Part shown: piece by piece, positions 2,700-19,540 of the stretch
How positions within the stretch are numbered: the first letter of the stretch is position 1
Layout of the letters: every line of letters starts with the position of its first letter
IMG/VR virus record: IMGVR_UViG_3300021961_000718
Location: 1-21,923 of that record
Origin: a virus
DNA: 21,923 bases
Reading direction: 5' to 3' (one strand)
Position numbers and translations under genes: made by a program
Notes under the pieces: generated by a model
Databases searched by the model: none
What the model was told of the DNA's origin: nothing
The model's input: the letters and a program-made list of their open reading frames with translations, nothing else

Positions 2700-3863
2700 A
2701 TGGCGGATACATTTTATTTTTCGCGAGATACGAAAGTCCATATAACACCGAATGATAGTAGTGGAACTGCAACCAGTGACGTTTACTACATTCCAGTATT
2801 AGATGGATTTAGTTTTTCTCAAGCAACTAATGTTACAGAAGTAACTTTAAATGAGATGGCAACTGCAGCAGGAGTTAGCAGAAGAGCTAGACAAATGTTT
2901 ACTGACTCTTACGCTCCAGCAGAGTGGTCATTCTCAACTTACATTAGACCATTTGCTTCAGCGGGGGGTACAAGAGGAACAGCAGGACATTCTTCAGCAA
3001 CAGATGGAGAACATCATGTTGTAGAAGAAGCTCTTTGGAATGCACTTGTAGCAGCTGACGAAGTAACAGGATCAAATGATGGTTGGACATATACTGGAAC
3101 AACTAAAGCAACTTTGGATGCAGCAAATTCAAATAAAGTAGCTTTAAACACTTTTACAATGCATGTAGAGATGGGTTCAGGAAAATCAAGTCCAACTATT
3201 TATAAATTAGACAAATGTGTTGTAAATGAAGTTTCTATTGATTTTGACATTGATGGAATCGCTACAGCTAACTGGAGTGGTTTTGCTTCAATTGTTACAG
3301 AAGAAAGTGCAATGACAACTGCAACAATTTACGAAGGCACAGATGCTAACGACACAAATAACTTTATTAGAAATAGATTAACAGACCTTACTGTCACAGC
3401 TGCGGATACAACAACTTTCCCAGGTGCGTCAAATAATGGTGTTTACTCACTTACTTTAACAGGTGGAAACGTTACTATTTCAAATAACATGACTTATTTA
3501 ACCCCAGAAACTTTGGGAGTTATTAACCAGCCTCTAGGTCATGTTACAGGAACACGATCAATTTCAGGTAACTTTACTTGTTACTTAAATACTCCTTCAA
3601 GCGGTGCTTCAAGTGCTGACTTGTTTGAGGATCTAATCGAGGCAACAACAAAAATCACTAACTCTTTCGATCTTAAGTTTGTAGTTGGTGGAACTGGAAA
3701 TACTCCAAGAATGGAACTCAATATTGATACTGCGCACTTAGAAGTGCCAACACATTCTATTGATGACATCATAAGCTTAGAAACTAACTTCCATGGCTTA
3801 CCGTCTTCAGTAGATGCGACTGATGAGTTCACTATTGACTTTGTAGGACCAGACGTAACTTAA
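2700..3863 (+). CDS. Major tail (tube) protein
   Basis: A protein of 387 residues in the position of the major tail protein, between the tail terminator and the tail chaperones. It opens MADTFYFSRDTKVHITP, followed by IPVLDGFSFSQATNVTEVTL, then a Trp/Phe-containing strand stretch (SYAPAEWSFSTYIRPF). This resembles tube proteins of the larger T5/marine siphovirus type. The C-terminal half repeats a beta-sandwich style pattern (VYSLTLTGGNVTISNNMTYL; TRSISGNFTCYL), so a second, surface-exposed domain is likely. The protein polymerises as stacked rings around the tape measure. It has the strongest ribosome site of the upstream region and is followed by a terminator, as expected for an abundant structural protein. 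Confidence 0.8.
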   Translation: MADTFYFSRDTKVHITPNDSSGTATSDVYYIPVLDGFSFSQATNVTEVTLNEMATAAGVSRRARQMFTDSYAPAEWSFSTYIRPFASAGGTRGTAGHSSATDGEHHVVEEALWNALVAADEVTGSNDGWTYTGTTKATLDAANSNKVALNTFTMHVEMGSGKSSPTIYKLDKCVVNEVSIDFDIDGIATANWSGFASIVTEESAMTTATIYEGTDANDTNNFIRNRLTDLTVTAADTTTFPGASNNGVYSLTLTGGNVTISNNMTYLTPETLGVINQPLGHVTGTRSISGNFTCYLNTPSSGASSADLFEDLIEATTKITNSFDLKFVVGGTGNTPRMELNIDTAHLEVPTHSIDDIISLETNFHGLPSSVDATDEFTIDFVGPDVT

Positions 3864-3870
3864 TCTAACA

Positions 3871-3895
3871 GGGAGGGGTAATTCCCTCCCTTTTT
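3871..3895 (+). terminator. Intrinsic terminator after the major tail gene
   Basis: GGGAGGG (3871-3877) pairs perfectly with CCCTCCC (3884-3890) around a 6-nt loop, followed at once by TTTTT (3891-3895). The stem begins seven bases after the stop of the major tail gene. The next gene starts 13 bases beyond the T tract, so partial read-through must supply the chaperone, tape measure and tip genes. Confidence 0.92.
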
Positions 3896-3908: not shown

Positions 3909-4337
3909 ATGACAGAAGAAAACAAAAAAGTATCACTAGCGAGTTTACTAACTCCAAGCAAGACAGTAACAGTCGATTACCCTGGAATGATAGGGTTCTC
4001 TGTAGATCTTTGTTACTTAGCTAGAGAAGAACTACTAAAATTAAGAAGTAGATGTATTTCTCAAAAATTTAATAGAAAAACTAGAGCTTTTGACGATCAA
4101 CTTGATGAAGATAAGTTTTTAGTTGAATATTGTAAAGCAGTTATTAAGGGATGGAAAGGCTTAAAATATTCTTACTTAGAAGAGCTTCTATTGGTGGATA
4201 TTAGTGCTCTTAATCCTGACGATGAATTAGAATTTAATCAAGAAAATGCTGAAACTCTTATGAAGAATGCAGCAGATTTTGATACTTGGGTAACCGAAGT
4301 CACAGGAGATTTAGAAAATTTTACCAAAGTCAAGTAA
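3909..4337 (+). CDS. Tail assembly chaperone (gpG-like, unshifted product)
   Basis: A protein of 142 residues, starting after AGGA (3898-3901). Tail assembly chaperones bind the tape measure and guide tube polymerisation around it; they are absent from the finished virion. Family signs are the opening VSLASLLTPSKTVTVDYPG, the repeated YLAREELLKLRSRC helix, the FNRKTRAFDDQLDEDKFL segment and KAVIKGWKGLKYSYLEELL. It sits directly before the tape measure, as G does in lambda. Its last codons overlap a second frame in the -1 relation, with a slippery heptamer at 4316-4322. Most ribosomes should stop at TAA 4335-4337 and give this short form. Confidence 0.85.
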   Translation: MTEENKKVSLASLLTPSKTVTVDYPGMIGFSVDLCYLAREELLKLRSRCISQKFNRKTRAFDDQLDEDKFLVEYCKAVIKGWKGLKYSYLEELLLVDISALNPDDELEFNQENAETLMKNAADFDTWVTEVTGDLENFTKVK

Positions 4338-4747
4338 CAGAAATCTTAGAGTTACTTGATAATTATTATAAAGACGGTCAAATATCTTTAGATACATATT
4401 TGGATATATGTGAACAAAAAGGTATTTTACCTAATGAAAACGAAATGCCACCAACTACATCGGATTTTCCGTATGAAGTTCAGGTGGCTTTTTTTATACA
4501 TGATTTATTATCTGATCGTTGGGAAGGAATGAGCGGTTATTACATGGGTAAGGATTTTTCAAATTTAGAAACATTATTAAAAATTTGGGAAGTAGAAGAT
4601 AAAAAAACTTGTATATACTTTATAAAGCATATAGAACACAGAAATGCTCGTAAAGTAAATAAAGAAATGGAGCGTAAACGTAAGACAGCTGAAAATAAAG
4701 CTAAGAATAGTTCGTCAGGAACAAATATAAGAAAGGTAAATGGCTAA
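3909..4747 (+). CDS. Tail assembly chaperone GT fusion by -1 programmed frameshift
   Basis: Predicted join of 3909-4322 and 4322-4747. The ribosome decodes to AAT TTT, slips back one base and continues with TAC CAA AGT, giving ENF then YQSQVTEILELLDNYY. The fusion has 279 residues: 138 from G and 141 from the T frame. The T part carries FPYEVQVAFFIHDLLSDRWE, GMSGYYMGKDFSNLETLL and a Lys/Arg-rich C-terminus, which is typical of the T half of such chaperones. The T part joins the tape measure to the tube subunits. An ATG at 4286 in the T frame lies inside G, before the slip site, and has no convincing ribosome site, so separate translation is unlikely. The stop overlaps the tape measure start by eight bases. 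Confidence 0.85.
4316..4322 (+). promoter_or_regulatory. -1 frameshift slippery heptamer A_AAT_TTT
   Basis: In the G frame the codons are GAA AAT TTT, so bases 4316-4322 read A_AAT_TTT and match the X_XXY_YYZ rule. After slipping, the same tRNAs pair with AAA and TTT. The new frame is the T frame and stays open to 4747. The site is 15 nt before the G stop codon. Confidence 0.88.
4330..4359 (+). promoter_or_regulatory. Frameshift-stimulating stem-loop
   Basis: TCAAGTAAC (4330-4338) pairs perfectly with GTTACTTGA (4351-4359) around a 12-nt loop; a G-U pair (4329/4360) can extend it. The stem starts 6-7 nt after the slippery heptamer, the usual spacing for a stimulator. The stop codon of G (4335-4337) is inside the 5' arm. 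Confidence 0.75.
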
Positions 4748-7700
4748 AAAAGAAGTAAGAATTCCTATTAAAGTTGATGGAAAAGAAATTCTATTAACCC
4801 AAAAAGAGATAAAAAAATTAGCAAAAGAAACTACTAAAGCCTCAAGAGGCTTTGATGCTCTATCTACTTCTCAACAAGGCGCTGATCGTGCTGCTAAAGG
4901 CTTAACTCGCCAATCTTCAAACCAAACAAAAAACTTTTCAAAAATTCAACAAGGTATTAGTGGGGGACTTGTTCCCGCTTATGCAACTCTTGCCGCTCAG
5001 GTATTTGCTGTGTCTGCAGCCTTTCAATTCTTACAAAATTCTGTAAACTTCAAAAATCTTATTGAAGGTCAAAAAGCTTTTGGAGCTGTTACAGGTACAG
5101 CTTTTGCAACTATTACAGGAGCAGTACGAGCAGCTACAAATGGGCAATTAGCTTTTCAAGATGCAGCACAAGCAACAGCTATTGGTACCGCTGCAGGATT
5201 AAATAGAGCTCAATTAGAACAATTAGGAAAAGCCGCACGAGATACTTCATTAGCTTTAGGAAGAGATCTCTCAGATTCTTTTAATCGCCTTATTCGAGGC
5301 GTAACAAAAGCAGAACCAGAATTATTAGATGAATTAGGTATTATACTAAGACTTGATCCTGCATTAAAAGCTTATGCTACAGCAATAGGAAAAACTAAAG
5401 ATGAATTAAATGCTTTTGAAAGAACACAAGCAGTCTTTAATGAAGTTGCTGGTCAAGCCGAAAATAAATTTGGAAGAATTACAGAAATAATGAACCCTAG
5501 TGCTTTTGCATTATCACAGTTTGCAACTGCATTTGATGATTTATTAAATATACTAAAAACAGGGGTAGGTATAGTTGCACAAACCGTACTTCCTTTCTTT
5601 ACTAAAAACATAGCTGCATTAACTGCAGCTTTATCTCTTTTTGCTATTCCAATTATAAAATCTATTCTACCTTCTTTTGATGCTATGGAAAAAAATGCAA
5701 AAGAAAAATTAAAAGGAGTAGAAGGATCTCTAAAAGCTACTCAAAAAGAAATGAAAAACTTAGCAATTGCTCAGCAAGCCGCAGGAGGGGATGCAGCATC
5801 TCTTTCTCAAATGGCAACTTCTGGACAAAAAGGAGCAAAAGCAATGCTCTCAAAAGCAGGAGTAAGTGTTAAAGGAGATTTAAGTCAAAGACAAGTAGCA
5901 GCATATAAAAGATCCATGGATCAAAAAACAGGGATTTACAATAAATTTAATAGACAAGAAAGAATTGCCTTTAATGCACACTTAGCTAAATTAGATGCCG
6001 TACATAAAGCTTCTACAAACAAAAGAAAATTACAAACTCAAGTTGCAGAACAACAAAAGCAAGCTATGTATAAAAGAAGCCAAATGGTTTATCAACAAGC
6101 TCAAATTAAAATGACTCAAGCCACAGCTTTTGCTGCAAAAGCTATGAACAAAGCTATGGCAGCAGCGGGTATTATAGGTATAATAACTTTGATTGCATCT
6201 GCAGCAGTATCATTATTTAACTTTTTTAGGACAAAAGATGAAGAAGCAGAAAAAGCAAAAGAAAGAATGAATGAACTAACTGATGCTGCAAGAACTTTGA
6301 ATACAGAATTAGGTAGATCACTTGAAGTTAGAGCACAAGGACTTTTGCAAGTAGGGCAAATTGCACTGCAAACTGCAAAAATGATACAAAGTGCAAGTGC
6401 ACAACAAATGGCACAAGAATTTCAAACAACAGCAGCAGGAGCAAGCAAAAAGAAATCAATTAGAGTTGAGAAAGGAGTAAGAAAAGAAGTATTTGCAGAC
6501 AGAGGATTCCAACAAAATGTAGAACAAACAAGTAAAACTTTCTCTAATTTAGCAAAAGCAACAACAGGTCCACTTAAATCGGCATATGAAAGTATAGCAA
6601 AAACTATTGCAGACGGAAACGCTCCTACAGCAGAACAGATACAAAATTTAATGAAGTTAGAAGGCGAATATATGGGCCTTGCTACTTCTGTTGAGCAAGC
6701 AGCAGAAGTTCAAAAAACTTTTGATCAAGCTTTAAGAGGTGCAGTTGGTCCTAAAAGACAGTTTCAAGCTTTGCGACAAGCTTCTGGAGCTTTGTCAGAA
6801 AATATTCAGAATCAAATAAAAATGCTTGAGCTTGATGCAGAGCAAAAAATGCAAGAAGGTCCTGTAGGAGCTAAGTATATAGCTGAATATGACAAACAAA
6901 CAAAAGAACTAAAAGGACAATTATCAACACAACAAAAATTAGATGCAGAATTAGAAGGAATATTAGAAAAAGAAGATAAAATTGCAGAAGCAACACAAAA
7001 AAATTTACGAAATAAATTAGCAATAAGTCCTTTAAGTACAGTTGAAAATCAAATGGCAACTGCACAAGCTGGAATAGTAGACAAAGTATTAGCAGCAAGA
7101 AGACAGCAATTAGCTGTAGAAGTAGCACAAGCACAACTAGATGCTGCAGGAACAGCCGAAGAAAAGAAAGACGCTCAATTTAATTTAGATTTACAAAAAG
7201 ATATACTTGAAACAAGTAAAGCACAAATAACTGCTGAAGCAGAAAAAGTTGCTTTACAAGAAATACAAATTAAAAATGCTGAAATACTGAAAAAATTAGG
7301 AATGGAATCTACATTAGCAAAAGGAAATGTTGATGTATTTAACCAAGCTTTTTCAGGAGCAAATAGAATGTTCTCTGGAACAAATGCTTCTAAAATGGCA
7401 CAAACAGCAGCTTCTGCCGACCTTAGAATACAAGCACAACGAGCAGAAACAGAACAAAAAATTGCTGCATTAAGTGCACAAAAAGTAGAAGCAGATACTA
7501 AAATGAAAGCATTATTAGATGCAAGAATTTTACAAGAACAAGAATTAGGCAAATTAAAAGAAGAAGAAATAAGACAAACTTCTTCATTATTAGATCAAAC
7601 TTTATTAGGAGCACAACAAGCAGGAATAGGTGCGCTTGAATCTTCAGCAACTTCAAATATTATGTCTGTTGCAAAAGGAGAGAAAAGTGGAGAAGAAGCA

Positions 7701-8246
7701 CTAAAAGCTACAGCATTATCTGTTGCAGAAGCAATATTACAAAGTATAATTAGTAGTTTAGTATCTTCAGCGATAGCAGCTTTAGGAATTACAACTCCAG
7801 CAATAACAAGTGCTCATGCAGCAGGTGGAACAACTGCAGCAGGATTAATAACAACAGCATTTAGTACTGGAGGAGCCGCTGCAGCCGCACTAATACAAGC
7901 AGCAATGATAACTGGAGGGGTAGGTAAAGGTTTTAGATACGGAGGTATTGTAAGTGCAGCAGAAGGAACAGTAGCATCAGGACCACAATCAGGATATCCA
8001 GCCATTCTTCATGGAACAGAAGCCGTAGTACCTCTAGGACAAGGGAAAAATGCAATCCCTGTAGAATTTACAGGTAATGGAAATATGGGGAATGTAAATA
8101 ACTCTGTAGTAAATGTAACAGTTAATTCAGATGGAAGTACAATGACTCAAGAAGATGCTACAAAATTTGGAAAAGGAATAACTGCAGCAATTCAAGCAGA
8201 AATTGCAAGACAACAACGATCAGGAGGGCTACTTAGCACAACATAA
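4740..8246 (+). CDS. Tail tape measure protein
   Basis: A protein of 1168 residues and one of the largest here, directly after the chaperones. It sets tail length and usually helps DNA pass the host membrane. Long Ala/Gln/Lys-rich helical stretches dominate, especially about 500-980. Hydrophobic segments lie near 73-100 (GLVPAYATLAAQVFAVSAAF), 275-310 (FFTKNIAALTAALSLFAIPI), 473-495 (AAAGIIGIITLIASAAVSLF) and 990-1060. The C-terminal region carries the common tape-measure ending: RYGGIVSAAEG at about 1065, then HGTEAVVPLGQG. I see no lysozyme or peptidase motif. The start overlaps the end of the T frame by eight bases, so translation is probably coupled to frameshifted ribosomes as well as a GAAAGG site at 4731-4736. 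At roughly 0.15 nm per residue the tail would be about 175 nm. Confidence 0.92.
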   Translation: MAKKEVRIPIKVDGKEILLTQKEIKKLAKETTKASRGFDALSTSQQGADRAAKGLTRQSSNQTKNFSKIQQGISGGLVPAYATLAAQVFAVSAAFQFLQNSVNFKNLIEGQKAFGAVTGTAFATITGAVRAATNGQLAFQDAAQATAIGTAAGLNRAQLEQLGKAARDTSLALGRDLSDSFNRLIRGVTKAEPELLDELGIILRLDPALKAYATAIGKTKDELNAFERTQAVFNEVAGQAENKFGRITEIMNPSAFALSQFATAFDDLLNILKTGVGIVAQTVLPFFTKNIAALTAALSLFAIPIIKSILPSFDAMEKNAKEKLKGVEGSLKATQKEMKNLAIAQQAAGGDAASLSQMATSGQKGAKAMLSKAGVSVKGDLSQRQVAAYKRSMDQKTGIYNKFNRQERIAFNAHLAKLDAVHKASTNKRKLQTQVAEQQKQAMYKRSQMVYQQAQIKMTQATAFAAKAMNKAMAAAGIIGIITLIASAAVSLFNFFRTKDEEAEKAKERMNELTDAARTLNTELGRSLEVRAQGLLQVGQIALQTAKMIQSASAQQMAQEFQTTAAGASKKKSIRVEKGVRKEVFADRGFQQNVEQTSKTFSNLAKATTGPLKSAYESIAKTIADGNAPTAEQIQNLMKLEGEYMGLATSVEQAAEVQKTFDQALRGAVGPKRQFQALRQASGALSENIQNQIKMLELDAEQKMQEGPVGAKYIAEYDKQTKELKGQLSTQQKLDAELEGILEKEDKIAEATQKNLRNKLAISPLSTVENQMATAQAGIVDKVLAARRQQLAVEVAQAQLDAAGTAEEKKDAQFNLDLQKDILETSKAQITAEAEKVALQEIQIKNAEILKKLGMESTLAKGNVDVFNQAFSGANRMFSGTNASKMAQTAASADLRIQAQRAETEQKIAALSAQKVEADTKMKALLDARILQEQELGKLKEEEIRQTSSLLDQTLLGAQQAGIGALESSATSNIMSVAKGEKSGEEALKATALSVAEAILQSIISSLVSSAIAALGITTPAITSAHAAGGTTAAGLITTAFSTGGAAAAALIQAAMITGGVGKGFRYGGIVSAAEGTVASGPQSGYPAILHGTEAVVPLGQGKNAIPVEFTGNGNMGNVNNSVVNVTVNSDGSTMTQEDATKFGKGITAAIQAEIARQQRSGGLLSTT

Positions 8247-8620: not shown

Positions 8621-9858
8621 GTGATAAATTAATGGTAGAAGATCTTCAAAAGCAAGATCCAGGTTCCAATTTAATTTTTCTTTATGAACTAGAAATTAGC
8701 TCTAGTAGTACTGTATATTTCCATTCAGGAGTAGAGGCAGATTTATCAACAGTACAATTTAGACAAGAAGACGGGACAATCAATACTTATGTAGCTATAC
8801 CAGTACAAACTGAGGGTTTCGAAATAAATCCAAGCGGTGCAGTTGCTAGACCTCAAATAGCTTTTGCAAATGCAACTTCAGTTTTTGGAAATGCAGTAGG
8901 AGATTACGACTCGTTATTAGGTGCAAAAGTAACGAGAAGAACAACTTTAAAAAAATATTTAGTAGGAGAGTCAGGAGATTCAACTCCTCCTGTAGAATTT
9001 CCTAAACAAGTTTATTTTATAGATAGAATATCTGAAAAATCCAAATCTATAATAAGTTTTGAACTTGCTGCAAGTTTTGATTTAGAAGGAGTAACCTTAC
9101 CTGCTAGACACATTATTGCTAATGCTTGTCCTTGGATTTATCAAGGAGCAGATTATACTTTAAATGAGTATGAAAAAGTAGGCGGGTGTACTTGGAATAG
9201 AGAAAGTAAATATAAAGTAGCATATCAACCTAGTACTACAGGGCTTGACGGTACTACAGAGTACATTGCTCTTGTAAATGTTGACGATGAATATATAGTG
9301 CCCGGGGCAGGAGAATCAGGTGCGGTAACTTTTTCTACTTCTGTTTCTTCTATAACTGCAAACTCTTACTATTCAACAACAACAACATTAGGAACAGCAA
9401 GTAAAATAAGAAGATTAAAAGTTGATGGAACTATAGATACTTCGGCAGATTCAACAACAGTAAATAATTATTGGCAAGCAGTAAAAACTACATCTAGCCC
9501 AGGAACCCTTAACGATTCTAATACAAATGTAAATAGAGTGCGAATTTGGGATACATGGAGTAGTAGCACAACATATTATGCTTATACTGATGACAGATAT
9601 AATGATTATGTTAGATATACAAGTGGAGGGCTTACTCGCTTGTGGAAATCTAAGAAAACAAGTTTAAATCAAGCTCCTGGATTCAATGAATATTGGGAAT
9701 TAGGAGATATGTGCGGAAAAACAACTAAAGCTTGTAAAATGAGATATGGATTTAATCCAATAAGTGCAGGAACTGCTACTTCAACAGGAAAAGCAGCTAC
9801 AAATACTACTGTTGTATTACCTTTTGGAGGTTTTCCTGGTGCAAAATCTTTTTCATAG
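8617..9858 (+). CDS. Minor tail protein L-like, iron-sulfur tip protein with a large insertion
   Basis: A protein of 413 residues against 232 in lambda gpL. The N-terminal part (LMVEDLQKQDPGSNLIFLYE; YVAIPVQTEGFEINPSGAVARPQ; ITSFE-like strands) matches the L family. The C-terminal domain of gpL proteins holds an iron-sulfur cluster through four cysteines. Here the protein has exactly four: C171 (NACPWIYQG), C191 (GGCTWN), C366 (DMCGKTT) and C373 (KACKMRYG). The ending LPFGGFPGA is also typical. Between C191 and C366 lie about 175 extra residues, ending in a segment that resembles chitin-binding CBM5/12 modules (WSSSTTYYAYTDDRYNDYV, then RLWKSKKTSLNQAPGFNEYW). The insertion may form a surface domain at the tail tip that touches host glycans; that role is inference. 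It overlaps the K-like gene. Confidence 0.85.
   Translation: MSDKLMVEDLQKQDPGSNLIFLYELEISSSSTVYFHSGVEADLSTVQFRQEDGTINTYVAIPVQTEGFEINPSGAVARPQIAFANATSVFGNAVGDYDSLLGAKVTRRTTLKKYLVGESGDSTPPVEFPKQVYFIDRISEKSKSIISFELAASFDLEGVTLPARHIIANACPWIYQGADYTLNEYEKVGGCTWNRESKYKVAYQPSTTGLDGTTEYIALVNVDDEYIVPGAGESGAVTFSTSVSSITANSYYSTTTTLGTASKIRRLKVDGTIDTSADSTTVNNYWQAVKTTSSPGTLNDSNTNVNRVRIWDTWSSSTTYYAYTDDRYNDYVRYTSGGLTRLWKSKKTSLNQAPGFNEYWELGDMCGKTTKACKMRYGFNPISAGTATSTGKAATNTTVVLPFGGFPGAKSFS
9826..9830 (+). promoter_or_regulatory. Ribosome binding site that decides the K-like start
   Basis: GGAGG lies eight bases before GTG 9839, inside the last codons of the L-like gene. No comparable site precedes the in-frame ATG at 9764, so translation should begin at GTG 9839. 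Confidence 0.75.
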
Positions 9859-10177
9859 TTTTTTACCTGAAATATATAAAGAAGCTGAAAAAGCTGCACC
9901 AAAAGAAATGTGCGGACTTATAATTCAGCAAAATGACAAAACAAAATGGATTTTGTGTGAAAATATTTCCGCAGAAAAAGATGAGTTTAAAATTGACGAG
10001 AAAGTTTTCGTTAAATATCAACTCACTTCTAAAATTTTATATGTAGTCCATAGTCACTACAATCAAAAAATTTGCAAACCCAGTGGATATGATGTTGCAA
10101 ATTGTAATGCAATAAATATTCCATATTTAATTGTAAGTTATCCACAAAAAGAACATTATATATTGGAACCAAAATGA
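9839..10177 (+). CDS. Tail assembly protein K-like, stand-alone JAMM/JAB metalloprotease domain
   Basis: A protein of 112 residues from GTG 9839. The N-terminal half of lambda gpK is a JAMM (Mov34/JAB) domain and the second half is NlpC/P60; only the first is present here. The JAMM residues are E23 (KEMCGLI), H71 and H73 (VVHSHYN), S82 and D85 (KPSGYD), followed by NAINIPYLIVS, as in phage K proteins. The spacing from H73 to S82 is eight residues, one more than I would expect for the usual phage form. The catalytic set for zinc binding is complete. Likely roles are processing of a tail-tip protein or local cell-wall action during entry. An earlier ATG at 9764 would add 25 residues that only mirror the L-like gene in another frame. 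It overlaps the L-like gene by 20 bases and the I-like gene by four. Confidence 0.82.
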   Translation: MQNLFHSFLPEIYKEAEKAAPKEMCGLIIQQNDKTKWILCENISAEKDEFKIDEKVFVKYQLTSKILYVVHSHYNQKICKPSGYDVANCNAINIPYLIVSYPQKEHYILEPK

Positions 10178-13900: not shown

Positions 13901-16277
13901 TACAGATGTAAATTCAAATGGATTAGATTTAATTGTCAGTTGGGAACACCCTCGCTCACAAAGAACAGATTCACAAGGAAATGCAATAAATTCAAAATAT
14001 GAATTTATCGCAGGTTATGAAATTAGAAATAATATATTTGAAGGCACAGAAGGTAAAATAACCAATATTAAAAAAGTTGGAGCAGAAGTAAGTTCTTATA
14101 GATTTAAAAATATTAGACCTGATATCTATACTATTGAAGTTAGAATGAAAAATAATGGAGGAAACTACTCCAAATATATACAAAAAAGAATAAATGTAAA
14201 GTCAGGCAAAGAACCAATTAGTAGTGGATCAAGAATTAATTCTATACCAAGAGGAGGTCAAGTAGATAAATCTTTGACTATAAACTCTTCAACAGGCTTA
14301 GCAGAATTTAGTTCCTCTACCTATAATTTAACAACTTCAAATGCAAAAGACTTTAATTTTACTGCAACAGGATCAGCAAACTATCAACAAAGTTTTTCTG
14401 GTATGGGAGCAAATGCAATTGCTTATTTATTATTTGATGCAAGTGCAACCTCTGATCATTTAAAGGCTATAAAAGTAATAAATAATACTACAGCAGTTGA
14501 TGCAAATAATAATAAATTATTTATAGATTATGTATCAGAAGTAGGAGCTGCAAATTCAGGATTAACCGCAGTTTCAGGAACAGTAACTTTAGCAGCAGAT
14601 AGTACTGAAGTTACAGGTAGTAGTACTACTTTTGAGTCTGACTTTGAACCAGGAGATAGAATATTCTTTGGTAGTGGAACAACTCTTTTTGCTGCAAAAG
14701 TAACTTTTGTGGATTCTAATACAAAGTTACAAATAGATAGAACATCTAGTAGAGCTTATACTGCGGATACAGGGTCTAAACTAAGTTTTATTCCAGATTT
14801 TACAGAAGATACAATATTGGCACAAGTTATAACAGATGGAAGTACTAATTATTCTTTTCAAAATACATATGCAGTAACCGCAGGACTAATAGGAGCAGAT
14901 GGAGAAGATGGAGCAACAGGAGCAAGTGTAAACATTGTATTCCAAAGAGCCTCTTCTGCCCCTACAACACCTTCTGCATCCGCAGGAGTACCTTCAGGAT
15001 GGTATGACTCTCCACCTTCTGGAACAGATTTATTATGGGCGGTTAAAGGAACAAAAGCAGTTGGTGCAAGTACATTTACTTGGGGAACAGTATTTCAAGT
15101 AGAAGGAACAGCAGTTGCAGAAGTAGCAATTTATAGAAAAGCTGCTTCAGTTACAACTCCAACAGGTGGAAGTTATAATTTTACAACAAGTACATTAACT
15201 GCTCCAACTTCTTGGAGTACAAGTGTTCCTACACTATCAGCAAATGGTGATAAAGTTTATCTTTCCGTAGGATTATTTACAGGGTCTCCTGAACAAACAG
15301 CCGCAACTACAACTTGGTCAACTCCTGTACTATATGCACAAAGAACAGATGGAGCAACAGGAGGTACAGGTCCAAGAACAGCAACAGGATATATTTATTA
15401 TCAATCTTCAAGTGCGACTAGCCCAACATCAGGAGCGGCTGTCTCAACAACTTCTGTAACTTATAGTTTTAGTACATCTTTACTTAGTGGCGGAGTAATC
15501 GGAACAGGTTCAACAAATTGGAATCAAAATCCTCCAACTTATACAGGAAGCAACGCAAATAAATATTGGTATGCATATTATAATGTAATAGAATCTAGCT
15601 ATGGAGGATCTTATACAGTTACTTTCAGTATTCCGTATCAAGGGCAAAACTTTACAGGTCTTGTAACATTTACTGGAACAAATACAATTAGTGATGGAAC
15701 AAATACTACAACAGCTATTACATCAGGGGACTTAGGATCAAGCGGAACAACTATAATTGATGGAGGAAGAATTGAAACAGGAACTATTAGTGCAAATAGA
15801 ATTTCAACAGATTTATTAAGAGTTGCGGATGCAGACAGCGAAGTAAATGATGCAGCTAAAACTGCAGGAAGTGTAGGTGGATGGACTATTGATTCTTCTG
15901 CGATTTATAGCGGAACAAAAGATACAAGTGGTTATACAAGTACAAATGGACACATAACAATAAGTAGTAGTGGCTCTATACATACTCCTACCTTTTATGT
16001 AAATACAGACGGAACTGCTGGTTTTAAAGGAACTGTGACCGTTGGAGGAACTGATTTAACAACAAGTAATACATTAAATGTAAATACTACTAAAACAGAC
16101 GTGGGATTAGGAAATGTAGATAATTTGGATTCCTCTGGACAAATACAGGATGCTTTTGATAATTCAACCTTAATTGATTCAGGAAAAATAAAACTTTCTG
16201 CAACTTCTGGTTCAACTACAAATTATATTGAAATAGATGCCACAAACGGCAGAATACTTATAGCGGATGCTTCATAA
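10914..16277 (+). CDS. Central tail tip protein J-like (host specificity)
   Basis: A protein of 1787 residues, larger than lambda gpJ (1132). It opens with a short Gly/Thr linker and then SERQNAIVYDVLSEGPIQGL (about 25-45), the J-family signature, followed by GLVNGPSSIFLNDTPL. The TipJ-type core runs to about 960, with KEVVAFGCTSQGQAHRFGKW near 716. A fibronectin III-like domain lies at about 974-1095 (LDLIVSWEHPRS; YRFKNIRPDIYTIEVRM). A beta-domain at about 1215-1280 (FEPGDRIFFGSGTTLF) and a short collagen-like stretch (GADGEDGATGA, near 1330) follow. The C-terminal ~180 residues include GGRIETGTISANRIS and TDVGLGNVDNLDS, a motif common in tail fibres. The J core closes the tube and the distal part probably contacts the receptor. 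It shares one base with each neighbour. Confidence 0.9.
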   Translation: MARPKNTETGTGTGAGGGSQQSAFYRISTSERQNAIVYDVLSEGPIQGLVNGPSSIFLNDTPLMEKSIQGLYSATTSSDISYNSSTGVVTDNTSKMFTNRDAEEGTYTILIAGAKKASSGIGSATAGSTTITTSSSFFAANDVSITTLPQYVTLKGAGAADCEYIGRIVEYVSATEVRVQPEITTTVSNKDIAIDLVDTIDSFSSNTATLTNGGGITVSNVYGQLSTPTQTVTSTPKYNFENASFSFRVGTRDQDYLTGPAGLGSSSIVYNASDELPPTDFSALSGFGANYFAAGDWNNVTEATDTGFLKESSTMGVTNPEEVDLVKVSIKFPQGLYAHKAKSGAEDDTFAEFQIYFEYTRDGTNYTSDLIIGPTDAELSSRSIDWGGRAGRAVSPSTGFINAFNKTPFVKTISIDISDYQPITNYRIRVKRITPANAQHGDYVHYNATQLQAIENVITDKFSYPYTAYGAVSFSAQDFTDIPRRGYEIRGLKVKVPTNYFSRYELGSSTEAAYTRNVTTGANSGSYQDWDGNFRGDIKTFTSKSSPNYNPVWTDNPVWILMDVLTNDRYGIGKYIDPDDSFSTIDKYQLFQLAKYCDELVPDGKGGQEPRFSCNVYLKDTQEAQKVIKDLLQVFRGMLVWFDGKISPAINAYKSPVYTFTKGNVVGGEFGYQSTSRRFRSNQIRVTWNNPDNFYKQEVEIVEDFENIIETNRINPKEVVAFGCTSQGQAHRFGKWHLFTEKLDKEVVNFSTGLNAAFLKPGDVIEVQDPDITNTQYSGRVASATSSTTTKVYLDRAIDLSASGQSFELNLIYPKGGAYLAQESATINSVEYQRGDLLLTDEGGNAIDTEVKANNLKDDSNNLVQLFWSENVRIETQTISSYNSSGDVTVSSAFTEAPNSEVIWSITNRTVATGEKLPAAPKEYIILSISENTNEQTFDITAANHSNAKFDLIDRGYVIETVPEIRKEPTRTDTVPAPRNLSLSIVSSGRDSLADTTDVNSNGLDLIVSWEHPRSQRTDSQGNAINSKYEFIAGYEIRNNIFEGTEGKITNIKKVGAEVSSYRFKNIRPDIYTIEVRMKNNGGNYSKYIQKRINVKSGKEPISSGSRINSIPRGGQVDKSLTINSSTGLAEFSSSTYNLTTSNAKDFNFTATGSANYQQSFSGMGANAIAYLLFDASATSDHLKAIKVINNTTAVDANNNKLFIDYVSEVGAANSGLTAVSGTVTLAADSTEVTGSSTTFESDFEPGDRIFFGSGTTLFAAKVTFVDSNTKLQIDRTSSRAYTADTGSKLSFIPDFTEDTILAQVITDGSTNYSFQNTYAVTAGLIGADGEDGATGASVNIVFQRASSAPTTPSASAGVPSGWYDSPPSGTDLLWAVKGTKAVGASTFTWGTVFQVEGTAVAEVAIYRKAASVTTPTGGSYNFTTSTLTAPTSWSTSVPTLSANGDKVYLSVGLFTGSPEQTAATTTWSTPVLYAQRTDGATGGTGPRTATGYIYYQSSSATSPTSGAAVSTTSVTYSFSTSLLSGGVIGTGSTNWNQNPPTYTGSNANKYWYAYYNVIESSYGGSYTVTFSIPYQGQNFTGLVTFTGTNTISDGTNTTTAITSGDLGSSGTTIIDGGRIETGTISANRISTDLLRVADADSEVNDAAKTAGSVGGWTIDSSAIYSGTKDTSGYTSTNGHITISSSGSIHTPTFYVNTDGTAGFKGTVTVGGTDLTTSNTLNVNTTKTDVGLGNVDNLDSSGQIQDAFDNSTLIDSGKIKLSATSGSTTNYIEIDATNGRILIADAS

Positions 16278-19200
16278 TGGCAAACAGAGTTCGACTAGGC
16301 TATGACGGCAGTGACTATTCTTTACAAATCTCTAAATCAGGGGATGATATAGTAACCGATACTATAAATACGAGAGATTTACTTTTTAATTCAAAGGATA
16401 ACTACCGTTCTGGTGTTATTGTTTCTGATACTGATGTAACTACTATGACAACATCAGGAGTTAGCTTGTCTACAACTGCGGATGCAAACTCAAACAATTA
16501 TATTCCAGCATACCAAGTAATTGAAAAAGGTGTAAAAACACCAGTATTGTATTTTCTTGACGATAGAACAACAGGAGGTGTGGGCTTTGACTTTGAAGCA
16601 ACAATGCAATCTGGAGTACCAACAACAGGAGGAGGAGGATTATTTGAATTTTCTCTCGGAGGCTCAGGTTCTACAGTTAATTTGGTAAAAGCAGCATTTA
16701 TCGATATTGTTGAATCTGAAAGTATTGTTAATCACGGACTCTCTGGGTATGATTACTTTTCAACAAATAATTATCCCTTTTTAGAAAATACTCGTACAAG
16801 AGGAAGCAGTGATGGCACTGTAAATATTTTAATGTTGCGCATACCTTGTCAATATGGAAAAATGACAAATGATGCAACTCTTTTTGGAAATTCTGTATTA
16901 ACTCCAAGTTCTTCTGGCGGAGGGGGCTCTGGTGGCGGAGGAAGTGTAAGTGCTCCTGCTGACCCAACTGTAAGTTTAAGTTCAAGAACTTCAACTACGG
17001 ATACTGTGAGTGTCTCTTCAAGTTCTGGTAGCGGTAACTCAGGCACAATTACTTTTGCTCAAACAACTACAAATGTTAGCCCTACTACTGGGTTTACAAC
17101 AACAACAAGCTACACACAGCCTCGCGGGTCTACAAGATATTATTGGGCTTCACAAGGAGGTTATGTTTCTGGAAGTACTTCTTTTGTTTCTCCCGCGTAT
17201 GATAATACTCCAACACAATTTACTTTTAATGATGTAACAGGAGCAACTCTTAGTACAGTTTATACATCAAACCAAGAAACAATCGCAGGGTTAGATAATA
17301 ATGACAGTGCAGCCGTATCGATTACAGGAGGAACATATAGCAAAAATGGAGGTACTTATACTTCATCGGCGGGAACTGCAGTAAATGGCGATACTTTTAC
17401 GGTTAGACAAACTTCAAGTTCTTCTTATGGAACAGCAGTAAATTGTACACTTACAATAGGAACTATAAGTGATACCTATACAGTTACAACAGGAGCAGCG
17501 GCACCTTCTAACCCCACAGTCTCTTTCTCTTCTAGAAATAATACGAATGAAACTGTAACCGTTTCCTCTACTTCGGGCAGTGGTAACTCAGGTACAATTA
17601 CATATGCCCAAACAACAACAAATTCTTCTTCGGGAGCTAGTTTTACAACTACAACAACATATACGCAACCGAGAGGGTCAACAAGATATTATTGGGCACA
17701 ACAAGGAGGACTAACTTCTGGAAGCACATCATATACTTCTCCTGCACTTGACCAAAGCCCAACAGCTTTTAGTTTTAATGATGTAACAGGAGCTTCTCTA
17801 AGCACAACTTATACTTCTAACACTATAACTGTTGCAGGGTTAGATTATGGAGATTCTGCAACAGTATCAGTTTCTGGTGGTACATATAGTAAAAATAGTG
17901 GAGGCTATACTTCTTCAAATGGAACAGCGGTAAATGGAGATACTTTTTCTGTTCAACAAACTTCAAGTGGAAGTTTTAGTACAACTACAAACTGTACTCT
18001 TACAATAGGAACAGAGAGCGACACTTATTCAGTAACAACTCTAGCTGCAGATACAACTCCAGACGCTTTTGACTTTACAAATCAAACAGGAAAAGAATTA
18101 AGTACTTTATATACATCAAATGTTGAAACAATTACTGGCTTAAATACAGGAGCTTCTGTTTCAATTAGTGGAAACTCAGCACAATTTAGTATCGCTGGAG
18201 GAGCTTGGTCAACCACAGGAACAATTACAAATAATCAAAGTTTACAACTAAGAATGTATTCCAGTTCTTCTTATAGTACATCAGTATCAACAACAGTAAA
18301 TGTTGGAGGAGTTACTGATTCTTGGGCACTTACTACAAGAGCCCAAGTACTAGCGAGTACTCCAAACGCTCCTACAGTAACACAAACAAACAATCCAAGT
18401 GGAAGCGTAAATGTAGATGTAACTTCAAGTGGAGGGTCTGGTACAATACAAGTTTCCCCCGATAATTCAAACTGGTATTCAAACGGACAAGATTTTACAC
18501 AGGCAAGAGGAAGTACTGTAACTTATTATGCTCGTTGTGTATCGACAGATAATCATGTAAGTTCTTCAGCAAGTACAGCAAAATTTGTACCTCCAACAGT
18601 AACTCTTGGCGCATTTTCAACCGTAAATTATAATTCTAGTGGAGGAACAAATAATTATACAATTACTACACAGAAATCTTCTGGAAACTTTGACACTTAT
18701 AGTAGTTATTGGGGGACAGTTTCTTATTCAGTAAGTAATAATTCTGGTGGGTGGCTTACAAGTAGTATAACTAATACAAGTAGTGGAGCTTATTCTTTAA
18801 CAGCAAGTTCTTTTTCGACTGTTGGGGGTTCAAGAAGTGCTACAGTAAGTTATACTGTATCTACTCAATTTGGCTATCAATATACAGGGACATTTACAGT
18901 ATCACAAGACGGTCCCGCTGCAGATACAACTCCTGACGCTTTTAGTTTTACAAGTAATTTTGCAGCAACACAAGGTCAAACCTATACAAGTACAGTAACT
19001 ATAACAGGAATAAATATAGGAACAACTCTGACTTTTAGTGGAACAACAGGCGCAGATTATAGAATAAATAGTGGAAGTTATACAACATCAAGTCAAACAG
19101 TAAATAATAATGACACTGTAACAGTAAGAATAACAGCAGCTTCTTCCGCTGGAGTTACAAGATCAGGGGCAGTAACTATTGGAGGAGTCTCTAGTACAAT

Positions 19201-19540
19201 GTATGTAGCTACCCCAGCTGATTTAGTTCCAGACCAATTTACTTTTACAGATGTTACAAATGCCGAGATTCAGGTTACTTATACTTCTACAATTACACTA
19301 TCTGGTATGACCCCTGGGTTTAGTACAAATGCTACTTTTTCGGGGTCAAGTTTAGCAGATTTTAGAGTAAATTCAGGAAGTTATTCACAATCCACAAAAT
19401 CAGTACAAAATGGGGATACTATAACAGCACGAGTAAGTGGGTTAACAACTTATGATACAACTTATACCGCACAAATTACAGTAGGAGGAGTATCAGACAC
19501 TTTTAGTGTAGCTACAGAATCACAAAATACAACAACATAA
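16277..19540 (+). CDS. Large multidomain tail adhesin with docking domain and tandem Ig-like beads
   Basis: A protein of 1087 residues, very rich in Ser, Thr and Gly, with few charges. Residues 1-50 (MANRVRLGYDGSDYSLQISK, then LLFNSKDNYRSG) match the N-termini of the genes at 20473 and 20883 and probably form a common tail-docking domain. A globular region follows to about 210, then a natural (G4S)2 linker (214-223). Beyond it lie beads of two kinds. Type A (about 229-308, 409-491, 693-770) carries GSGNSGTITFAQTTTN and PRGSTRYYWA. Type B (about 309-408, 492-591, 592-690, 882-979, 980-1087) carries FTFNDVTGA, GTAVNGDTF and a closing GVSDTFSV strand. A segment at about 770-880 resembles a BACON domain (SGGWLTSS; SATVSYTVS; FTVSQDG). 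No depolymerase motif is visible. The likely role is receptor or surface-glycan binding. It follows J with a one-base overlap. Confidence 0.7.
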   Translation: MANRVRLGYDGSDYSLQISKSGDDIVTDTINTRDLLFNSKDNYRSGVIVSDTDVTTMTTSGVSLSTTADANSNNYIPAYQVIEKGVKTPVLYFLDDRTTGGVGFDFEATMQSGVPTTGGGGLFEFSLGGSGSTVNLVKAAFIDIVESESIVNHGLSGYDYFSTNNYPFLENTRTRGSSDGTVNILMLRIPCQYGKMTNDATLFGNSVLTPSSSGGGGSGGGGSVSAPADPTVSLSSRTSTTDTVSVSSSSGSGNSGTITFAQTTTNVSPTTGFTTTTSYTQPRGSTRYYWASQGGYVSGSTSFVSPAYDNTPTQFTFNDVTGATLSTVYTSNQETIAGLDNNDSAAVSITGGTYSKNGGTYTSSAGTAVNGDTFTVRQTSSSSYGTAVNCTLTIGTISDTYTVTTGAAAPSNPTVSFSSRNNTNETVTVSSTSGSGNSGTITYAQTTTNSSSGASFTTTTTYTQPRGSTRYYWAQQGGLTSGSTSYTSPALDQSPTAFSFNDVTGASLSTTYTSNTITVAGLDYGDSATVSVSGGTYSKNSGGYTSSNGTAVNGDTFSVQQTSSGSFSTTTNCTLTIGTESDTYSVTTLAADTTPDAFDFTNQTGKELSTLYTSNVETITGLNTGASVSISGNSAQFSIAGGAWSTTGTITNNQSLQLRMYSSSSYSTSVSTTVNVGGVTDSWALTTRAQVLASTPNAPTVTQTNNPSGSVNVDVTSSGGSGTIQVSPDNSNWYSNGQDFTQARGSTVTYYARCVSTDNHVSSSASTAKFVPPTVTLGAFSTVNYNSSGGTNNYTITTQKSSGNFDTYSSYWGTVSYSVSNNSGGWLTSSITNTSSGAYSLTASSFSTVGGSRSATVSYTVSTQFGYQYTGTFTVSQDGPAADTTPDAFSFTSNFAATQGQTYTSTVTITGINIGTTLTFSGTTGADYRINSGSYTTSSQTVNNNDTVTVRITAASSAGVTRSGAVTIGGVSSTMYVATPADLVPDQFTFTDVTNAEIQVTYTSTITLSGMTPGFSTNATFSGSSLADFRVNSGSYSQSTKSVQNGDTITARVSGLTTYDTTYTAQITVGGVSDTFSVATESQNTTT
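16916..16945 (+). repeat. (G4S)2 linker coding segment
   Basis: Codons 214-223 of the large adhesin spell GGGGSGGGGS. It separates the N-terminal docking and globular part from the bead region. The codons are mixed (GGC, GGA, GGG, GGT), so this is not a simple nucleotide slippage repeat. Confidence 0.9.
16961..18055 (+). repeat. Two tandem copies of a 183-codon A+B bead unit
   Basis: The first copy starts at 16961 and the second at 17510, an offset of 549 nt (183 codons). Shared blocks include SGSGNSGTIT, FTTTTSYTQPRGSTRYYWA and FNDVTGA. DNA identity is high in places, for example ACAAGATATTATTGGGC occurs in both, while other parts have drifted. The copies therefore arose by duplication and diverged under selection for the fold. 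Additional single beads follow to 19540. Confidence 0.85.

Follow-up and report, generated by a model that had tools for sequence, protein, structure and literature searches.

Phage lambda makes two tail assembly chaperones from a single start by a −1 slip near the end of G, the genes lying between those for the tube and the tape measure; its slip heptamer is GGGAAAG. Different phages use −1, −2 and +1 shifts, and certain tailed-phage shifts seem to lack stimulatory signals (Atkins et al., 2016; PMC5009743). The Escherichia coli dnaX gene carries an upstream SD-like sequence, a heptamer and a 10 bp hairpin at the mRNA entry (PMC7282821). Here we analyse a 21,923 nt fragment of an uncultivated marine phage (IMG/VR record IMGVR_UViG_3300021961_000718; 34% GC), hereafter the window. 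It holds a siphophage tail module with head–tail adaptor, tail terminator, major tail protein, G, T, tape measure and minor tail proteins, in which G and T lie between the major tail protein gene and the tape measure gene, as in lambda. Its sequence makes it highly probable that a programmed −1 frameshift cassette produces two tail assembly chaperones from one start.

Gene pair and slip site in the window

The relevant features are as follows.

2700..3863, + strand: major tail (tube) protein gene; PHROG 3575 'major tail protein', E 7e-49
3909..4337, + strand: G, short tail assembly chaperone, 142 aa; PHROG 313 'Tail assembly chaperone', E 2.7e-13
3909-4322 joined to 4322-4744, + strand: predicted GT fusion, 279 aa, by a −1 join
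4304..4308, + strand: SD-like AGGAG, separated by 7 nt from the heptamer downstream; window anti-SD duplex −7.4 kcal/mol
4316..4322, + strand: slippery heptamer A_AAT_TTT, in phase with G; Asn codon AAT in 145/146 relatives
4322..4747, + strand: T, −1 frame extension; PHROG 3914 'tail assembly chaperone', E 7e-16
4330..4359, + strand: hairpin 1, arms 4330-4338 and 4351-4359, with a G4329-U4360 wobble; from folding, conservation and covariation
4335..4337, + strand: G stop codon TAA, within the 5' arm of hairpin 1; from the sequence
4442..4493, + strand: hairpin 2, a terminator-like stem followed by a T run, inside T; from MFE against a synonymous-codon null
4740..8246, + strand: tape measure protein gene; PHROG 3779 'tail length tape measure protein', E 7e-40

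Sequence homology links G and T to known tail assembly chaperones, and the predicted fold of G matches BFVD models named 'tape measure chaperone' from T5-like phages (TM 0.75–0.80). Searches of the PDB with G, by sequence and by fold, gave no significant match to a solved structure; an Rfam search of the window gave no match, and there was no close DNA match to the window among phage records or in plasmids. The tape measure protein is presumed to be the client of G/GT, and the major tail protein the partner of the T domain. In the gap that separates G from the major tail protein gene, an intrinsic-terminator-like hairpin (AGGGAGGG...CCCTCCCT, then TTTTT) is present at 3870-3891.

The last codons of G read ...GAA AAT TTT ACC AAA GTC AAG TAA, which places A_AAT_TTT at 4316-4322 in the right phase, as an earlier reading of this DNA from its sequence only had it. 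The rest of the geometry claimed there also holds: the spacer between heptamer and stem is 7 nt, or 6 nt if the G-U wobble is counted; the stem is a perfect 9 bp, or 10 bp with the G·U pair; and the stop codon of the short product lies in its 5' arm. T is in the −1 frame relative to G and is open up to 4747. The −1 product reads ...GDLENF-YQSQVTEILELL... across the junction, in agreement with the ENF-YQSQ fusion of the sequence-only reading, and the tryptic peptide predicted to cross it is NAADFDTWVTEVTGDLENFYQSQVTEILELLDNYYK. Of the 52 in-phase X_XXY_YYZ heptamers in the genes of the window, the one at 4316 stands far ahead in its well-placed hairpin: that hairpin folds at −10.8, the runner-up at −5.3, and no other heptamer has a well-placed one below −6.

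We infer the exact slip step, its efficiency and the roles of the chaperones along the following lines. Most ribosomes would translate G to its TAA, while a minority would slip on A_AAT_TTT, the Asn-tRNA moving from AAU to AAA and the Phe-tRNA from UUU to UUU, and continue in T to yield the 279-aa GT. Two elements would impose a pause, arranged as in dnaX: hairpin 1, with its base at the mRNA entry, 12–13 nt 3' of the first P-site base, and the AGGAG, which would pair with 16S rRNA to the rear of the ribosome. As in lambda, the tape measure protein would probably be coated by G and tied to the tube protein by GT, the G:GT ratio being set by the slip rate.

Conservation of the heptamer and its flanking signals

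Relatives came from IMG/VR scans, with the window G and four related G proteins as queries (one scan adding L175), and from a scan of GTDB genomes. This yielded 321 usable loci with 175 distinct overlap regions and G identities of 42–100%; T is in the −1 frame in 167 of these regions and in the +1 frame in eight. The conservation counts rest on 146 close, distinct −1 relatives, and they overstate independence because these relatives share ancestry.

The heptamer is A_AAT_TTT in 140 of the 146, A_AAT_TTC in three, G_AAT_TTT in two (L078 and L098) and G_CAT_TTT in one (L076). Every relative with Asn at this position encodes it by AAT (145/145), compared with 69% elsewhere in G; the remaining relative has CAT, and AAC is found in none of the 146. 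Phe is TTT in 143/146, compared with 81% elsewhere in G, and the codons adjoining the heptamer vary freely among synonyms. The hairpin is retained at two of these rare, non-canonical slip sites, G_CAT_TTT at L076:1677-1683 and G_AAT_TTT at L078:3408-3414; slipping of one tRNA on T_TTT might be enough there, or the sequences might be in error.

In hairpin 1 of the window, the 5' arm TCAAGTAAC (4330-4338) pairs with the 3' arm GTTACTTGA (4351-4359) across a 12 nt loop. Its MFE is −10.8 kcal/mol (z −3.9), with one of 200 dinucleotide shuffles as good; p is 0.003 under a first-order Markov null and 0.03 upon synonymous exchange of the 3'-arm codons. Two registers account for the best hairpin after the heptamer in 142/145 relatives: 92 have the 3' arm of the window and 50 have a 3' arm 9 nt nearer, with a common 5' arm around CAAGTA. 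The register has switched at least six times on the GT protein tree and 11 times on the G DNA tree, and the number of switches therefore depends much on the tree used. A hairpin with E ≤ −8 is found in 125/145 relatives, against 1.5% by chance. When the 3' codons are replaced by synonyms, preserving the protein, the family mean is −3.3 as compared with the actual −10.5, with p ≤ 0.05 in 111/145.

The sequences assigned to a register were selected partly by their pairing, and among them register 2 shows 56 double-changed cells, against 19.6 ± 3.2 in shuffled data. In this register, the third position of the stop codon and its partner in a Leu codon change from G-C to A-U (69/12), and C-G, A-U, G-C and U-A all occur at the adjacent pair; in register 1, one pair is C-G in 29 and G-C in 12. 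Tree contrasts for individual pairs, given as same versus opposite direction, are 4–5/0, 4–5/0, 2/0, 1/0, 1/0 and 1/0, amounting to about 12–14 in the same direction and none opposite; in independent-pair tests on single columns, which are underpowered, none reaches 0.05 alone. These patterns point to selection on a hairpin near the mRNA entry, as at dnaX, and hairpin 1 plausibly sets the G to GT ratio. The stop codon is at least partly paired in both registers; a placement of the register-1 stop in the loop was considered and rejected, folding showing the TA of the stop to be paired.

The SD-like sequence upstream in the window is CAGGAGAT. Across the family, anti-SD energy has a sharp peak 13 nt before the heptamer (mean −6.4, compared with about −0.5 at most flanking positions). 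Against a synonymous-codon null, p ≤ 0.2 is reached in 95/145 relatives but in 12% of control sites; taken on its own, the window does not reach significance (p 0.385). The codon preceding the Gly GGN of the element is ACA or GTA in 94/111, and that preceding Ser AGN is GTG in 25/34, though GTG accounts for 9% of Val codons elsewhere. Codon choice across the family thus supports selection on the element.

Because AGGAG is selected across the family, the cassette is better described as dnaX-like, with three elements, than as lambda-like. It shares with dnaX the SD-like sequence, an in-phase canonical X_XXY_YYZ heptamer and the entry hairpin; it differs in that dnaX slips on A_AAA_AAG, that the shifted product of dnaX is the shorter one, and that the 3' arm switches register in the window family. 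The sequence-only reading had placed the locus with lambda-type phages that make G and GT by −1 slipping. The gene pair and the logic of the fusion bear this out, whereas the signal does not: A_AAT_TTT stands in place of GGGAAAG, and is accompanied by an SD-like element and a strong hairpin. Tail-chaperone frameshifting is a known type, of which the combination of A_AAT_TTT, SD-like element and hairpin is, as judged from its elements, a variant. Comparison of the relatives demonstrates those elements and their conservation at the sequence level.

Alternatives to stimulated frameshifting

If T were a separate gene translated from its own start, either the TTG at 4286 or a later ATG, and perhaps by reinitiation after the G stop, no slip would be needed. 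The window does have this T-frame TTG, and the T homologues of the T5 family are usually annotated as ORFs of their own with internal starts. The TTG, however, has no preceding SD, and most relatives have no start at that place: 137/146 lack one anywhere from the upstream T-frame stop to the heptamer, which that stop abuts in 43/146 (ctTGA AAA TTT). The first T-frame start 3' of the heptamer comes 16–73 codons on, usually about 43, past conserved T residues. With no start before the heptamer and late starts after it, the conserved N-terminal part of T is reachable only by frameshifting in most relatives, and the −1 T ORF is accessible solely via slipping, as in a lambda-type G/GT pair. An independently started T would also leave the invariant AAT TTT and the covarying hairpin unexplained, and we regard it as extremely improbable. 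The sequence-only reading had proposed an alignment of the overlap in relatives, and had held that an unconserved heptamer, with T translated from its own start, would tell against frameshifting; in the alignment the heptamer is kept, the stem changes are compensatory and T lacks a usable start. The conserved heptamer, covarying stem and startless T support its proposal that a −1 frameshift on A_AAT_TTT makes G and GT.

The stem might instead be a by-product of dual coding or of AT-rich composition, the heptamer alone being what matters. Strong stems are indeed absent from L306, L308 and L310 and from a distant −1 group that we label 'freshwater' as shorthand rather than as a habitat record, and lambda-type sites have been reviewed as functioning without stimulators (PMC5009743). 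But the codon-preserving null is rejected in 111 of the 145 relatives, changes in the stem are compensatory, and the stem is retained while its 3' arm shifts by 9 nt, all of which makes this explanation very unlikely. We give equally little credence to the coupling suggested in the sequence-only reading, in which a ribosome terminating on G melts the stem around the stop codon and the stem then refolds, or to the timing of the next frameshift by such a cycle. Part or all of the stop codon does pair in both registers; nevertheless, a stem that starts 6–8 nt past the slip site must contain a stop located five codons later, which accounts for the stop in the 5' arm, and any terminating ribosome would unwind such a stem. 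Moreover, the stop of L294, two codons after Phe, lies upstream of its weak stem. The coupling is thus unsupported, and a −1 frameshift promoted by hairpin 1 and the SD-like element is the reading that we prefer.

A second hairpin, and putative slip sites in other branches

Segment-wise folding revealed a further structured region, hairpin 2, located 119–128 nt past the slip Phe codon. In the window it folds at an MFE of −21.4, where synonymous codons would lead one to expect −9.2; the median over 144 relatives is −24, that of their synonymous versions −10.8, and p ≤ 0.05 in 134/144. Among 76 sequences chosen from the close clade, 98.6% of outer-stem cells are paired, and one pair of this stem changes from U-A to C-G in 25 sequences. 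Comparison with synonymous sequences thus demonstrates RNA-level selection on hairpin 2 beyond codon constraint in most close relatives. Most of the +1 and G_GGA_AAC members lack hairpin 2, and L174, L271 and L277 have hairpin 1 without a typical hairpin 2. There is some small chance that frameshifting also gates transcription through this terminator-like structure: ribosomes ending at the G stop would leave hairpin 2 free to form, while those that had slipped into T would cover it. Slipping would in that case determine not only the G:GT ratio but also how often transcription reads through to the tape measure gene.

In the freshwater −1 group the usual heptamer is G_GGA_AAC, one codon upstream; A_AAT_TTC occurs in two members and C_AAT_TTT in one. 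Moderate hairpins are present in a few of the group, none of them consistent. A +1 T is found in the T5-family phages and in seven IMG/VR contigs; leaving aside the +1 contig L311, which has no junction motif, all 17 carry a C directly after UUU (CGN in 15, CAC in two). The window has no such site, as its T is −1 and A follows UUU. The T5 family (Demerecviridae) resembles the window in that G (29–40% identity) and T are homologous and joined at the same residue; unlike the window, it has a +1 T at UUU_C, no SD-like peak and no consistent stem. In phage T5 itself (L083) the end of G is at about 1880-1902, with the codons ACT TTT CGT, where a +1 shift would give the junction DTF-VAQK; its homologues L082-L094, L303-L307, L324, L325 and L330 likewise have a +1 T at UUU_C; such +1-frame pairs are usually annotated as two separate genes. 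The +1 site UCC_UUU_CGU of influenza A PA-X, an unrelated virus and gene, has a UUU_CGN like that of 15 of the 17 +1 relatives, the other two having UUU_CAC; the likeness is to the T5-type relatives and not to the window.

From the frame, the motif and conservation upstream of the annotated starts, we infer that the T5 family uses +1 frameshifting at UUU_C, although T may instead be reached there by a −2 shift. This would be a frameshift in a family for two members of which, T5 and Sugarland, one paper has no predicted signal (PMC6256483). A search restricted to non-subscription papers turned up no account of a +1 site in T5. The idea nevertheless has some precedent: the record of Salmonella phage Sw2 is annotated with a frameshift join, +1 in length, and a fused-length chaperone of 277 aa from the T5-like phage Shivani is listed in UniProt. 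On a 95-row GT protein tree, built by a quick method and read as unrooted, there is one change of direction between −1 and +1 (SH-aLRT 97), and fusion lengths are collinear across the slip classes. One homologous chaperone pair, joined at the same residue, thus has at least three slip solutions: A_AAT_TTY −1 with SD-like element and stem, G_GGA_AAC −1, and an apparent UUU_C +1. The evolution of recoding direction and of stimulators is therefore testable with this natural series.

Two other genes of the window may be mentioned. A Prok-JAB domain protein (Pfam PF14464), whose start codon is uncertain, is encoded at 9812-10177 in the minor tail protein region. At 16277-19540 there is a 1087-aa protein with internal repeats (TPxxFSFxxVTGAxLSTxYTSN-like) and no Pfam match, which is probably a tail fibre or Ig-like repeat protein.
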